NCBI RefSeq assembly: GCF_000332095.2
Contig: NZ_KI913949.1
Span: forward strand, 4,674,769 to 4,738,768
Length of the DNA: 64,000 bases
Direction of reading: 5' to 3'
Source of the DNA: Leptolyngbya sp. PCC 6406
GTDB taxonomy: Bacteria > Cyanobacteriota > Cyanobacteriia > Phormidesmidales > Phormidesmidaceae
The translations under genes were made by a program, and so were the position numbers. Under the pieces are notes generated by a model that had not been told where the DNA came from, did no database searches, and was given only the letters and a program-made list of their open reading frames with translations. This document shows positions 57,685-64,000 of the stretch, piece by piece. The first letter of the stretch is position 1. The number at the start of each line of letters is the position of its first letter.

Positions 57685-58851
57685 CTATTGATCCTGATCG
57701 CGCACCAGAGTCAAAATTTCCAGATTGAGGCTGTCGAGGGCTTGCATCATATTCCAAACCTCCCACTCCATCTCCTCGGCAGGGCTCATAAGCCCCCTTA
57801 TTCTATAGCCACCACACTGGGTCAAGGGGCGTAACGGGGGGGAGCCAAAAGGGGACTCTAGGGAGGCCATCAGATCCACCATGAGATCCAGCATAGCCAG
57901 TAGAAAGGCGCGGCGGGTGACGGGGGCCTCGTCTGCGATCGCGATGGCAGGTAGCGGTATAAACTGCGCTATTTGCTGAGGGGATTGGGGAGCGATCGCC
58001 TCCCTGGAGGACGTTTGGGCAAGGTTGCCTTTAACGGTGGGCGGTGCCCACCCTGCCGTCGTTGAATTTTCCCCTGAATTCGTCTTGGTGGCCTCCAGCA
58101 GAGCCAGGGATCGCCGCACCTCTTGCAGCATCGTCAGCAGCTCTTGAATCAGCCGATCGGCGTCGTACAAAAAATGCTCGTGCTGTCCCAGGCCCCCCGT
58201 CGGGTCTTGAAATTCGTGATAGAGGGTTTCTACATAGACCAGGAACTCGGCGCAGGAGAGGGGCACATCGTCCTGGGCGGGGTCGAGATAGGCGGCAAGA
58301 TCGAGGTTTACAAAGCGTCTGAGCAACTGCTCGTATTCAATGTAGGTGTGGTGATCATCAGCACGAATTAGCTCCAGCAGGGCTTCGGCCTCGATGTCAT
58401 CAAAGGGAGGAAAAATAGTGCGTAAGCTGAGGGGGGTAGAGTGCTGCGCGCCTGGGGTTGGCCATGGCTCAGACAGCGCTTTGGTTTGGAAGGGGGCCAT
58501 CTGGCGGTAGGCATCTTCGATCTGGCGGGGGACGCGCCCGCGCAGGTAGGCCATGTCACTGCCCAGGGCATTGCAGGCGGTGGTGATGGCGTGCGATCGC
58601 ACCACCCACCTCTCCTCCACTTCGGCCCAAAGTAAGGCCATGATCCGGCTATATTCACCCCCCAGCAGCGGTTGTTCCAGATCCCTCGACTGCAACTCAG
58701 CCCAGGGCAGGGGCGCTTCATCCGTAGACTGCTCTGGGATATCGGTGGCCTGACTTTCCCCGTGCAGCTCGGCGCTGGCATCTGCCAGGGCGGTTCCCTG
58801 GGCCAACAGCAATAGCGCTAAGCATCCGCCCGCAGCGTGCCTCCAAGCCAT
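57685..58851 (-). CDS. Secreted helical protein, unrecognised
   Basis: The 388-residue product has a signal peptide (WRHAAGGCLALLLLAQGTAL, cleaved after ALADAS). The rest is mainly helical with many Glu, Arg and Leu: RIMALLWAEVEERWVVRSHA, ALLELIRADDHHTYIEYEQL, ADRLIQELLTMLQEVRRSL. There are a few cysteines (ITTACNALGS, LSCAEFLVY, LTQCGGYRI). The end contains LDLMVDLMASLESPF. No domain was recognised. It is the middle gene of the segment between the R-g arms, on the same strand as the lipoprotein. Confidence 0.72.
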   Translation of the reverse strand: MAWRHAAGGCLALLLLAQGTALADASAELHGESQATDIPEQSTDEAPLPWAELQSRDLEQPLLGGEYSRIMALLWAEVEERWVVRSHAITTACNALGSDMAYLRGRVPRQIEDAYRQMAPFQTKALSEPWPTPGAQHSTPLSLRTIFPPFDDIEAEALLELIRADDHHTYIEYEQLLRRFVNLDLAAYLDPAQDDVPLSCAEFLVYVETLYHEFQDPTGGLGQHEHFLYDADRLIQELLTMLQEVRRSLALLEATKTNSGENSTTAGWAPPTVKGNLAQTSSREAIAPQSPQQIAQFIPLPAIAIADEAPVTRRAFLLAMLDLMVDLMASLESPFGSPPLRPLTQCGGYRIRGLMSPAEEMEWEVWNMMQALDSLNLEILTLVRDQDQ

Positions 58852-59000
58852 CTCGATTTCCTCCCCTGCAAATTTACATCGTGCTTTAGACTGCTGTCTT
58901 CATAGCGGGCACAGAAGTTTCAGACAGGTTGACAATTCGTAAGGTGACCCCCACGGTATTGGTCTAATAAAGCAGGTGGAGAAGCTAATTGAGGAATACT

Positions 59001-59267
59001 ATGACGACTTCAGGAACGCATGGAACCGTTACTTCCCAGACGGAAATTAGCAATATTTCCGCTAACGGTCTGTGGCTGCTCTGCCGCGATCGCGAATATT
59101 TCTTGCCCTACGACCAATTCCCTTGGTTCAAAGACGCACCCATCAAGCACGTTTTTAACCTAGAAGAGCCCCACCCCGGTCATCTCTACTGGCCCGATCT
59201 CGATGTCGATCTCTCCCTTGACATCATCCAGCACCCAGAGCGATTTCTCTGCATAGCCAAATCCTAA
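59001..59267 (+). CDS. DUF2442 domain protein
   Basis: From ATG 59001 the product has 88 residues. The sequence ISNISANGLWLLCRDREYFL, DQFPWFKDAPIKHVFNLEEP and LYWPDLDVDLSLDIIQHPER is the whole DUF2442 domain. This small family is common near toxin-antitoxin genes and other accessory DNA and has no proven function. Its partner (often a DUF4160 protein) is not present. It is the last gene inside the R-g-bounded segment and the only one on the plus strand. Confidence 0.85.
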   Translation: MTTSGTHGTVTSQTEISNISANGLWLLCRDREYFLPYDQFPWFKDAPIKHVFNLEEPHPGHLYWPDLDVDLSLDIIQHPERFLCIAKS

Positions 59268-59321
59268 GATCCCCAGCACCCTGATCGATAACCATTCCCT
59301 GCTGGGCCGTCAGGATGGGGT

Positions 59322-59457
59322 ATCAACGGAAGCCGAGACAATATTGGTTCCGAGGAATTCAGGAGTCAGAAGTCAGAATCCAGTACTCTCCTAGATTCTG
59401 GCTCCTAACTCCTAACTCCTCCCCAAGGGATTTGTCCCGCTTTGAGTTGATACCCTC
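59322..59457 (-). repeat. Long repeat R-g, right arm (inverted)
   Basis: Inverted copy of 56207-56340, about 136 bp with most positions identical. The inner and outer 20 bp also agree, so a homologous recombination substrate of more than 100 bp is present on either side of 3 kb. After it begins a 115-bp gap to the next gene. Confidence 0.85.
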
Positions 59458-59573
59458 AGGGGGTTCGGGGGGTTGAGTTTACTTATCTGTTGCAATGCCA
59501 GCGGATACTATGGCCTTAACGCAACTTCTTTAATGCTTGGAACTTCAGCCTGCAACATGGGGGGCAAACACCA

Positions 59574-60695
59574 ATGAGCGAATATCAGTACTATGAATTT
59601 CAAGCCCTCGATCGCGCCCTGACACCCCAAGAACAGGAAACCCTGCAAGCGCTGTCAAGTCGAGCCCACATTACCCCCCACAGGGCCAGCTTTGTCTACA
59701 ACTATGGCGACTTTCGGGGTGACCCAGAGGCCATATTGACCAAGTATTTTGACGCGATGCTCTACATCGCCAACTGGGGCACCTGGCAGCTCATGTTTCG
59801 CTTGCCCAAAGCGCTGGTTGATCTTGCATGGTTCAAACCCTATGAGATCGAGGATGCGATCGCTATCTCTACCACCGCCCACCACCTGATTCTCAACATT
59901 AAGATTCAGGAAGAAGATGGCATGGTGGGTTGGGTCGAGGGCGAAGGCTGGCTACCCCGGCTATTACCCCTGCGTGATGACCTGTTGGCGGGTGACCTAC
60001 GGTTGCTGTATTTGGTCTGGTTGCGGGTATGTCCTAACCTGATGGAGTATGGCGAGGATGAAGACCCGACTGAGCCGCCCCTACCGCCCAACCTGGAGAA
60101 ACTAACCCCGCCCCTAAAGGCATTTGTGGAGTTAGTGGAGCTGGACAACGACCTGATTGCCGCCGTCGCTCAGACTAGCCCTAGCCATCGGCCAGCCCCG
60201 GTCCCGTCTCTAGAAGAGTGGCTCCCCCAGCTAACCGAGGCAGAACGTCAGCAATTTTTGCTGAAACTGGTTCGGAGAGAACCCCACGTCGATCTGCAAT
60301 TGATTAACCGACTGAAGGAGTTGGCGGGGGCTGATTCCCCCCTACCGCTAGCCTCAGAGCAAGAACGGCGGCGATTTTCGGATCTGGTGGCGATCGCCGA
60401 CGATGTGGCGGCCAAGCGCCAACGAAAGGAGAAAGCTGCCGCCAAAAGGCAGCGTATCAAAGAGCTGGAGGCCCTGGCTCCTAAGGCGACCCAAACCTGG
60501 GATCGGGTACTAGATTTGATTCAGGTGAAACAGGCCCATGCCTACGATGAGGCCACAAGATTAATCGAAGACCTGCGGGACTTGGCTGAGCACCAGGGAC
60601 AGTTGCCTGTCTTTAGCCAGCGCTTAGAGCGGCTCAAGGCAGACTATCGCAATCGCCCCGCGCTCATGAGGCGACTGCAATTGATTAAGACGTAA
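59574..60695 (+). CDS. Conserved hypothetical protein with a coiled-coil region
   Basis: The 373-residue protein begins SEYQYYEFQALDRALTPQEQ and contains ALSSRAHITPHRASFVYNYG and DFRGDPEAILTKYFDAMLYI with ANWGTWQLMFRLPKALVD. I remember this N-terminal pattern as widespread in cyanobacteria and actinobacteria in proteins of unknown function. From about residue 260 the sequence is lysine/arginine/alanine-rich and helical (AAKRQRKEKAAAKRQRIKEL), suggesting a coiled coil that binds nucleic acid. No catalytic motif stands out. It is followed after about 40 bp by the STAND/HigB remnant. Confidence 0.75.
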   Translation: MSEYQYYEFQALDRALTPQEQETLQALSSRAHITPHRASFVYNYGDFRGDPEAILTKYFDAMLYIANWGTWQLMFRLPKALVDLAWFKPYEIEDAIAISTTAHHLILNIKIQEEDGMVGWVEGEGWLPRLLPLRDDLLAGDLRLLYLVWLRVCPNLMEYGEDEDPTEPPLPPNLEKLTPPLKAFVELVELDNDLIAAVAQTSPSHRPAPVPSLEEWLPQLTEAERQQFLLKLVRREPHVDLQLINRLKELAGADSPLPLASEQERRRFSDLVAIADDVAAKRQRKEKAAAKRQRIKELEALAPKATQTWDRVLDLIQVKQAHAYDEATRLIEDLRDLAEHQGQLPVFSQRLERLKADYRNRPALMRRLQLIKT

Positions 60696-60731
60696 AGTAC
60701 TTTGTTGTAATGGGCTACCGCCATCCCCGCT

Positions 60732-60971
60732 ATGACCGGATTTGAACCCCTGATCGGAGCCGCCGCCGCTGGCCTGGGCGGTCTGATCACCAGCTTGGTG
60801 AAAGACAAGGGCAGCGAAACCCTGAACAGGCTGGACTGGGACATCGGTAAAAATCTGACCCTGAAAAAGGCGATGGTGGGCTATGTGCGCCGCTACATTG
60901 ATCGCCATCGTATTTGTTTTGGCTGGTCGGAGCAGGGAGCCACTGAGGTTGAAATTGTTGATTATCACTAG
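60732..60971 (+). pseudogene. Chimeric remnant: STAND NTPase N-terminus joined to HigB C-terminus
   Basis: The first 59 of the 79 residues (TGFEPLIGAAAAGLGGLITS, then LVKDKGSETLNRL) have the character of the N-terminus of cyanobacterial NACHT/STAND proteins. The last 20, RICFGWSEQGATEVEIVDYH, are exactly the conserved end of HigB-type toxins (RICF-x-W...VEIVDYH stop). A HigA antitoxin starts 12 bp later, the normal HigBA spacing. So a recombination has replaced most of the toxin with the start of a STAND gene. Neither protein can function in this form. A small leftover protein may still be made. Confidence 0.72.
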
Positions 60972-60983
60972 AGTCGCTGGCCT

Positions 60984-61289
60984 ATGAGAGTCCCCACCCA
61001 CCGCCCCCCAACCCACCCTGGTGAAATGTTGCTAGAGGAATTTTTAGCGCCACTGGAGATCTCTACCAAGGGGTTAGCGACTTCCATCAATATGCCAGTC
61101 GCGACGATTGAGGCTGTGATAAATCAACAACAGAGCTTAACGCCGGGATTGGCTCTGCGATTGGCCAAGTTTTTTGCCACGTCTGTGGATTTTTGGCTGA
61201 CCTTGCAATTGCGATGGGATCTCTATCAAGCCCAGCAGGAGGAAGCAGAAGCCTTGGCTGAGATTCATCCCTATCAAGCTGCTTCTTGA
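60984..61289 (+). CDS. higA: HigA-family antitoxin (partner toxin truncated)
   Basis: The 101-residue protein has the HigA pattern: HPGEMLLEEFLAPLEISTKG at the start, then a helix-turn-helix (LATSINMPVATIEAVINQQQ) and the family closing LTPGLALRLAKFFATSVDFW. It normally binds the HigB mRNA-cleaving toxin and represses its own operon. Here the upstream toxin has only its last 20 residues (60912-60971), so the antitoxin is an orphan. It may still act as a repressor or neutralise another HigB encoded elsewhere. Confidence 0.9.
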   Translation: MRVPTHRPPTHPGEMLLEEFLAPLEISTKGLATSINMPVATIEAVINQQQSLTPGLALRLAKFFATSVDFWLTLQLRWDLYQAQQEEAEALAEIHPYQAAS

Positions 61290-61391
61290 CCTCTTTTCTA
61301 CCTGAACTCCTATTCACTTCTATGTGAACATCCTGCAAATCATGCTGGGCAACCTAGTACACCCAGGCCGAAATAAGCTTGCTATTCTGTC

Positions 61392-61500
61392 GCGCCAGCC
61401 CAAAATTGTCCGGTCCCCTCGCCCCCTTGGAGAGGGCTAGGGAGAGGGGCCGAGTGTGTCACGATAGAACGGCCAGGGTATTTCCGCCGCCCAGCACTAG
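61392..61500 (-). repeat. Dispersed repeat R-f, copy 2
   Basis: The reverse complement (AGTACTAGTGCTGGGCGGCGG to GGGGACCGGACAATTTT) matches 44846-44945 with about one change in seven. It occupies most of the gap between the antitoxin and the next small gene. Confidence 0.72.
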
Positions 61501-61837: not shown

Positions 61838-62078
61838 GCGGTGCATTGCGGCTAAGGGGGTTGGTCTCGGAGTTGCGAAGGAGGTTGGTGCCGCGAATGC
61901 ACCCTACGGGAATTCTGGAGGTGTGCGTCGCGTAACGCCAATGCGAGGCTATGCCAACGCGAAGCAATGCACCAAAATCTATCAACCGTGAGCGGTGCAT
62001 TGCGGCCAGGAAGGTTAATCTCATATTTGCCAAGGATATTGATGCCGCGAATGCACCCTACGGGCATTCTGGAGGTGG
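61838..62078. repeat. REP array, left flank of the RAYT gene
   Basis: Three related units lie in 240 bp: 61838-61916 and 61988-62071 as direct copies, each running from GCGGTGCATTGCGGC to GCGAATGCACCCTACGGG, with a shorter reversed unit between them (CGCGAAGCAATGCACC at about 61958). The core GGTGCATT/AATGCACC is an inverted repeat. Such units are what RAYT transposases recognise and move. Confidence 0.82.
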
Positions 62079-62094
62079 TGCGTCTTGTCTGGCT

Positions 62095-62577
62095 ATGCCG
62101 AATTATCGACGTTTTCATGGTGCTGGTGGCAGCTATTTCTTTACCCATGTCACCTATCAACGCTACCCGTGGCTATGTACCGATCTGGGCAGACAGTCCC
62201 TGAGGGAGGCTATCGTTACCATCCGCAAAAAGTACCCCTTTACCATTGATGCTTTTGTCTTACTGCCTGATCATTTGCACTGTATTTGGACGTTGCCTGA
62301 GGAGGACAGCGACTATGGCAAGCGGTGGCGATTAATCAAGCTGATGGTTACCAAGGCGTGTGGCCAAAAATTGGCGCTGCCCTCGGAGAAAACTCTGTCA
62401 GGCGAACGGCGACAGGAAGGTAATCTCTGGCAGCGCCGCTATTGGGAGCATTGTCTCCGCGATCAGCAGGATTTCATCAACCATTGCGAGTACATTCACC
62501 ACAATCCGGTGAAACACGGCTTGGTTGCTTGTCCTACCGATTGGCCCTATTCCAGCATCCATCGATATTTAACGTAG
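62095..62577 (+). CDS. REP-associated tyrosine transposase (RAYT, IS200-like)
   Basis: From ATG 62095 the product has 160 residues (the earlier start at 61951 would run through REP DNA). The HUH motif is LPDHLHCIWTLP. The catalytic tyrosine is in HCEYIHHNPVKHGLV. The start PNYRRFHGAGGSYFFTHVTY and the QRRYWEHCLRDQQDFINHC helix are typical. This Y1 transposase cuts single strands at folded REP sequences. All catalytic residues are present, so it may be active. It is embedded in its REP array at 61838-62832, a unit known as a REPtron. A decayed fragment is at 53793-53879. Confidence 0.92.
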   Translation: MPNYRRFHGAGGSYFFTHVTYQRYPWLCTDLGRQSLREAIVTIRKKYPFTIDAFVLLPDHLHCIWTLPEEDSDYGKRWRLIKLMVTKACGQKLALPSEKTLSGERRQEGNLWQRRYWEHCLRDQQDFINHCEYIHHNPVKHGLVACPTDWPYSSIHRYLT

Positions 62578-62977: not shown

Positions 62978-64000
62978 TCAAAAAGGGTGGATTTTGATGT
63001 TTTTGAATTTACAATTTTGCATTAAACCGCTACAGTTTACAAGTCTCGGTGCGAGAGAAGAAGACAACAAATCCACAATCAATGAATCACCAAGGGCAAC
63101 CCAGATGGGAGATTCTCCCTCCGGAGATAAAGAGGGATTCGCTTGGAGGTTGTCGTAGTTCAGATATTCGCCGCCTTTGCGCCAGCCGACGCGATCCGCA
63201 AATTTTTCGAAAGTGTCTTTATGATACTGGCCATCGAGTGGGTTGCCTGTCTCTACATAGATTTTCTTTTGCACGCTAAAGCCAAATTTGCCCCGGCTAT
63301 ACTTCACCCATAGCCCATCTATGGTCAACAGCTCGTCGCAGGGAAAGTTCAGCAGTTCTTCCGAATCAAACCACTGCCCGTCTTCCTTGCCAACGGTTGT
63401 AATCATCAGTCGATAGGTCTCTTGATCGGCTTCTCGCCACTGGCCATTTTTGAGGTAGTCCTCTAGCTGTTGATAGCGCGAGGTGGTGACGGTTTGCTGG
63501 AGTCCCTTTAGCTCCTCCTCTAGTTCTGGGGTCAGGCGTTTGGTGGTGTCTTGCCAGCAGGCGTAGGCCAGGTCGGTGGCTCCCCGGTCGAGCATGGCTC
63601 GCAACAGGGGGGCGGGTTTCACCTGGGCGGCGTAGAGGGAAATGGTGGGTTTCCACCAATCATCGGCAAAGTGGTCGTAGAGCAATTCTTCTTGTCCGAT
63701 GCGGGCCAGTTCGGCGGCGGTCAGGTATTCCTGAAAGCTGAGGTGGGCAAATTCGTACTCGTCCTCCTGCTGCACCAGCAGCTCACTAATCTGCACCACT
63801 TGGTCGATAAATTCCGCTGCATCCACAGCTTCTTCCTGCTGGTGCAGGCATTGGGTCATAAAGCGCCGCAGATCCCCTTGGGGAATGCGCTCTTGGCGCT
63901 GCTGCATCATGTGCAGGGCCAGCATTTGCAACAGGGTTTGGGCTTCGCACTGGGTCAGCAAGGAGTCGAGTTCGCGGGCGCGGGGACGGTCTTTGAGTTG
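62978..64000 (-). CDS. NACHT-type STAND protein with C-terminal GUN4 domain (N-terminus outside window)
   Basis: The frame is open to the right edge, so the NTPase domain itself is not visible, only 340 C-terminal residues. The first part (ELDSLLTQCEAQTLLQMLAL, FAHLSFQEYLTAAELARIGQ) is the helical region that follows NACHT NTPases; EFAHLSFQEYLTA is diagnostic. From about residue 180 the GUN4 domain appears: RYQQLEDYLKNGQWREADQE, FPCDELLTIDGLWVKYSRGK, FGFSVQKKIYVETG and EKFADRVGWRKGGEYLNYDN. GUN4 binds porphyrins and activates magnesium chelatase. As a sensor on a STAND protein it may detect tetrapyrroles or control cell fate. The tail after the domain (PRLVNCSGLMQNCKFK) is not family-like. 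Confidence 0.85.
   Translation of the reverse strand, partial: QLKDRPRARELDSLLTQCEAQTLLQMLALHMMQQRQERIPQGDLRRFMTQCLHQQEEAVDAAEFIDQVVQISELLVQQEDEYEFAHLSFQEYLTAAELARIGQEELLYDHFADDWWKPTISLYAAQVKPAPLLRAMLDRGATDLAYACWQDTTKRLTPELEEELKGLQQTVTTSRYQQLEDYLKNGQWREADQETYRLMITTVGKEDGQWFDSEELLNFPCDELLTIDGLWVKYSRGKFGFSVQKKIYVETGNPLDGQYHKDTFEKFADRVGWRKGGEYLNYDNLQANPSLSPEGESPIWVALGDSLIVDLLSSSLAPRLVNCSGLMQNCKFKNIKIHPF

Follow-up and report, generated by a model that had tools for sequence, protein, structure and literature searches.

HigBA is a type II toxin-antitoxin system in which the toxin gene comes first, and its two proteins are recognized by the models PF05015 (toxin) and TIGR02607 (antitoxin). In addiction modules, the loss of the toxin is tolerable as long as the antidote is kept, whereas an antidote lost before its toxin would not be tolerated, and antitoxin genes without a working toxin partner represent a described state in themselves. 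In Dickeya, the toxin-first pair of DUF4160 and DUF2442, named DhiTA, has been tested as a toxin-antitoxin system (PMC8198452). Bacterial NACHT STAND proteins of the bNACHT type are described as antiphage in PMC12169576. We analyzed a stretch of 64,000 nucleotides from Leptolyngbya sp. PCC 6406 (positions 4,674,769 to 4,738,768 of contig NZ_KI913949.1), hereafter the window, which contains pieces related to these systems. The features concerned are as follows (positions in the window, strand, description and basis).

58967 to 59041, plus strand: C-terminal tail of a DUF4160 gene, the rest lost; 20 of 25 residues (80%) identical to residues 54-78 of DUF4160 in two relatives (L007 and L013)
58989 to 59267, plus strand: complete DUF2442 gene, the antitoxin side of a DhiTA-like pair; PF10387, E 1.4e-13
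59574 to 60695, plus strand: gene for 373 aa; in Nodosilinea P-1105 its 3' tail is followed immediately by an intact STAND gene; sequence comparison
60707 to 60731, plus strand: 5' flank common to intact STAND genes; DNA comparison with relatives
60732 to 60971, plus strand: chimeric ORF of 79 aa (P0001), a STAND N-terminus followed in frame by a HigB tail; ORF call and comparison with relatives
60732 to 60908, plus strand: STAND part, codons 1-59 of a NACHT protein of about 750 aa; residue and DNA similarity to relatives
60909 to 60971, plus strand: HigB part, the last 20 of 97 codons and the stop; residue match to a HigB of P-1105 (L023)
60984 to 61289, plus strand: orphan higA, intact ORF of 101 aa; NCBIfam TIGR02607
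about 62978 to the window end at 64000, and on to about 65284, minus strand: NACHT-GUN4 gene, 768 aa; domain matches; the STAND part does not derive from it

The locus resembles each of the described systems in part. As in HigBA, an intact HigA follows the C-terminus of a HigB at the usual toxin-antitoxin spacing, but most of the toxin is missing, and what is left is an orphan antitoxin rather than a system. The same state is seen in antitoxin genes without a working partner, from which the window differs in that the toxin remnant and the partner joined to it can be read at the level of single bases. The first 59 residues of the chimera come from a family of bNACHT-type likeness in which intact members match both NACHT and NCH2, whereas the stub itself has neither NACHT nor sensor, and its placement in the family is by sequence. 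The DhiTA order, DUF4160 and then DUF2442, is also present, but here DUF4160 is cut to about residues 54-78 and its tail overlaps the start of the complete DUF2442 gene in a different frame. Together with its intact DUF2442, this DUF4160 tail (58967-59267, plus strand) forms another scar with a toxin tail, which lies 1.7 kb upstream of the chimera.

No Pfam or NCBIfam model matched the 79-residue ORF, so that the assignment of both halves depends on relatives. Residues 1-59 were identical at 49-54 of 59 positions to the STAND N-termini of nine relatives among Nodosilinea/Leptolyngbya-type cyanobacteria, and we regard this end as homologous to the intact members of the family. In close relatives the intact proteins have 714-760 aa and match Pfam NACHT (PF05729) and NCH2 (PF22727); the NACHT domain with its P-loop, present in them, is absent from the ORF. 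Residues 60-79 were identical at 19 of 20 positions to the C-terminus of the P-1105 HigB, which matches the Pfam model HigB-like_toxin (PF05015) with an E value of 6e-17, while none of 100,000 composition shuffles of the tail exceeded 9 of 20. The intact HigB proteins of this locus and of a second one (L026) have 97 aa each and both match HigB-like_toxin; only residues 78-97 are left in the chimera and 77 of 97 are gone, whereas a complete HigB toxin has the RelE fold and about 90-100 aa. A search of public genomes with the ORF gave 86 confirmed loci, of which 80 were kept, and these fell into two main sets, one cyanobacterial and matching residues 1 to about 59, the other consisting of HigB-type genes and matching from about 45-60 to 79. 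The comparison with relatives confirms both assignments made in the earlier note, and the ORF can be described, at the level of its sequence, as a chimera of a NACHT STAND N-terminus and a HigB tail.

The position of the join could be narrowed to a few bases. DNA similarity to close relatives with an untruncated STAND gene stops at 60905-60908, and the closest higB matches (L023 and L026) start at 60909 and continue unbroken through higA to 61285-61289; most HigB matches of a junction probe start at 60906-60909. The junction reads ...GATCGCCAT then CGTATTTG..., with a microhomology of at most about 3 bp, an approximate value judged from relatives that differ on both sides and are not the exact parents. 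A junction with so few shared bases has the usual look of illegitimate recombination, and the scar of that type claimed in the earlier note would be placed here. That an assembly artefact joined two unrelated pieces is hardly credible: nothing positive speaks for it, the junction lies deep within a 5.47-Mb contig, and a similar STAND remnant with multiple deletions occurs elsewhere in the same assembly.

The fusion is found in one genome. The probe of 165 bp (60820-60984) had some match in 28 of the 388 genomes of the class, and an end-to-end match in 1 of 388, the window's own. Among 72,556 plasmid records the ORF gave nine matches, all on the toxin side and none spanning the junction, and among phage records it gave no match. 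Six of the loci examined matched both halves; four of them are the window itself, and the other two (L019 and L020) were rejected, because the second match is a chance one of 8 residues far from the STAND gene. A locus matching residues 3-79 (L048) was likewise rejected as a second fusion, since it encodes a full HigB-type protein. A conserved, independent family of 79-residue proteins, which the earlier note had named as the finding that would speak against its reading, was sought and is rejected, because no other match in the public-genome loci, the 388 genomes, the plasmids or the phages spans the junction.

Downstream of the junction the antitoxin gene is undamaged. HigA scored 94 bits with TIGR02607 (antidote_HigA; cut-off 47.7) and 17.6 with Pfam HTH_3, below the cut-off of 23. 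It is 82-83% identical to the HigA of L023 and of L026, both of which have an intact HigB, and the HigB tail stands in register with it, 12 bp upstream. The orphan antitoxin and its spacing are thus as the earlier note had described them. Another higBA of the genome (L006) has both genes intact; its HigA shows about 41% identity. A literature search for Tyr91 among the active-site residues of HigB found no papers.

Upstream, the stop of the 373-aa gene lies 36 bp before the chimera. Two contigs of Nodosilinea P-1105 (L015 and L008) start with the last ~50 bases of this gene, followed by a similarly short spacer and an intact STAND gene. This arrangement bears out the view, already expressed in the earlier note, that a STAND gene once stood at this site, where it would have followed the 373-aa gene. 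No STAND gene beside a homologue of the 373-aa gene was seen in the other loci examined (L118, L119, L121, L126, L127, L128 and L130), and the remaining STAND genes have different upstream neighbors. The tail of the gene is cut at one and the same point in both P-1105 contigs, which suggests that this strain carries a repeated unit of the 373-aa gene and STAND. A TATAGT-like element upstream of the intact STAND genes of relatives is not preserved in the window, and a promoter scan of 58840-61500 found 0 sites, compared to 1.6 expected in shuffles, which supports expression neither one way nor the other.

The earlier note had also considered that the STAND part was related to the NACHT-GUN4 gene on the other strand, and in this it was wrong. 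When the two were compared by blastp, significant matches between NACHT-GUN4 and the STAND family were confined to the NACHT core, with 22-27% identity, and the alignments began at residue 115 or later in the STAND proteins and at residue 174 or later in NACHT-GUN4. We rejected this gene as the source, because its N-terminus is unlike the chimera and the NACHT core alone aligns. Besides its GUN4 domain, it has a PADLOC match to PD-T4-6 (E 4e-35) at residues 535-752, the GUN4 part. Between higA and this gene lies a REP-associated tyrosine transposase gene (61951-62577, plus strand; NF047646, E 2.3e-55) with repeated short sequences on both sides.

The surroundings of the intact STAND genes bear on how the two halves met. 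In 5 of 20 full-length relatives (L007, L008, L011, L013 and L015), toxin-antitoxin genes or their fragments were found behind STAND on the same strand, and upstream in none, when up to 2.5 kb was scanned; because the panel was chosen partly by the downstream content of these genes, these figures are a description and not a test, and three members (L008, L015 and L187) had less than 200 bp upstream and 14 of the 20 had only ~1.2-2.0 kb downstream. DUF4160-DUF2442 lies directly behind STAND in L007 and L013, and also in L015 with an interrupted DUF4160 frame. In L011 an antitoxin-like ORF, a toxin that we take from its sequence to be RelE, and DUF2442 follow, and L008 has fragments of the antitoxin-like ORF and of RelE. 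The DUF2442 gene of the window has close homologues just behind some of these intact STAND genes. A higBA pair was never found behind STAND in the relatives scanned, where the genes were either DUF4160-DUF2442 or of the RelE type, and in a set of 99 loci matched by higA or higB, STAND, the 373-aa gene or DUF2442 occurred in those of the window alone. The earlier note had proposed a search of relatives for intact genes at this site; an intact STAND gene behind the 373-aa tail was found, and STAND and higBA side by side were not.

We consider it likely that the 79-aa ORF is a dead fusion, produced by one deletion between a STAND gene and higBA on the same strand. In the ancestral order, the 373-aa gene would have been followed closely by STAND and, further downstream on the same strand, by higB and higA. 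The deletion would have taken STAND from codon 60 on, the intervening DNA and codons 1-77 of higB, with ends that shared at most about 3 bp. We have to infer both this order and a deletion rather than a transfer, since no genome with STAND and higBA next to each other was found. One deletion accounts for the shared orientation, the kept register of higA, the STAND stub and the missing start of higB. The product retains 20 of the 97 residues of HigB and lacks NACHT, so that neither toxin nor sensor activity is expected from it. The surviving higA is an intact orphan. Because the upstream DNA where the promoter of the higBA operon would lie is lost, its transcription probably depends on read-through out of the 373-aa gene, by which the chimera may be expressed as well. 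The earlier note had spoken of a toxin overwritten by the start of a STAND gene; the chimera stands, and the word overwritten is better replaced by joined, in that two genes on the same strand both lost the segment between them. Its interpretation is partly supported as a whole, being right in the main point.

Alternatively, illegitimate recombination may have brought the higB tail and higA from another place into a resident STAND gene. The lack of a second locus with STAND and higBA among the 99 would agree with such a transfer, as would the transposase gene just downstream and the fact that the higBA similarity stops with higA or slightly short of its end (61285-61289), as it would for a small transferred piece. 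However, both parts have the same orientation with the higB-higA register intact, toxin-antitoxin genes do lie just behind STAND in some relatives, and the parallel case in Nodosilinea LEGE 07088 described below is a simple deletion within such a cluster. We therefore think that a transfer is rather unlikely.

Deletion has shortened other members of the family. In L018 (2626-3172) of Nodosilinea LEGE 07088, STAND runs to about codon 48 and is joined to an out-of-frame RelE-like gene and then a truncated DUF2442, and the antitoxin-like ORF is not kept. In the window genome itself (L005, at ~5.419 Mb), residues 1-61 of STAND continue directly at 131, and a later, frame-shifted join leads to the last ~22 residues. 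The first of these is an event parallel to the deletion proposed for the window and the second shows decay by internal deletion in the same genome, and both support it. In L016, STAND to about codon 48 is joined to its last ~9 residues, and in L124 unrelated residues follow codon 38. The left breakpoints of the five stubs (L124, L018, L016, the window and L005) lie near codons 38, 48, 48, 59 and 61, in a set that leaves aside L012 and L150 (truncated at about codon 137, near a contig end) and L017 (a frameshift). We rejected a breakpoint hotspot at codons 38-61, because there are only five events, two of them in one genome, and chance may produce such a pattern. Remnants of the C-terminal end are also frequent among related STAND genes, so that general decay suffices and a hotspot is not needed. 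Behind the remnant in L005 (8041-6647, minus strand) lie an antitoxin-like ORF, a RelE-like ORF that is intact, a DUF2442 gene and another C-terminal piece of STAND.

It is very improbable that the fusion is a working small protein under selection, with a role such as binding HigA or disturbing STAND assembly. Its junction is in frame without a stop, STAND N-terminal stubs recur, and dN/dS of the STAND part is low (0.06-0.31 compared to relatives). However, dN/dS mainly records the time before the fusion, the recurring stubs differ in what comes after them, the fusion occurs in 1 of 388 genomes, and no intact STAND gene of its family, which might serve as partner, was found in the window genome. 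The dN/dS of the STAND part is little above the range among intact genes (0.01-0.24), and relaxed selection is thus not shown. For higA, the values compared to relatives were 0.035-0.10 where calculable, similar to those among relatives, with a saturated dS. We dropped dN/dS as a means of dating the fusion or detecting decay, since it has no power with so short a STAND part and with higA saturated in dS.

On these grounds, the locus is a case of ordinary gene decay, a deletion-born pseudogene with an orphan antitoxin, which is unusually well resolved. Taken alone, it is one more decayed locus. It shows a base-level route to an orphan antitoxin, in which a deletion removes a gene of defence type along with the greater part of a toxin and the antitoxin stays. 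The pattern in which one STAND family has toxin-antitoxin genes right behind it, and deletions end in the toxin, could help to interpret orphan antitoxins as vestiges of defence genes that have been lost. A more speculative idea, which we regard as unlikely, is that such pairs act as deletion guards, so that, when a lineage loses STAND, surviving deletions tend to end in the toxin and to spare the antitoxin. In that case, HigA at 60984 and DUF2442 at 58989 behind its DUF4160 tail would be footprints of lost defence genes. The idea is based on few scars, and L018 fits it in part only, as its antitoxin-like gene is missing and its DUF2442 truncated.

Orphan higA genes were also found outside the window. 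In a survey of ten different higA loci with 55% or more identity to that of the window, leaving out one at a contig edge (G008) and a partial one (L107), an intact HigB adjoined in seven and was absent in three, namely the window, a P-1105 copy (L023, at 1082) and L157; these loci were found via higA or the chimera, and cases with the toxin kept and the antitoxin lost lie outside such sampling. The P-1105 copy (L023, 1082-1384) has no adjoining higB, and a fragment of a REP-associated transposase lies just upstream of it (847-1014). In L157 (1367-1974), an intact higA stands beside a HigB with a broken frame.
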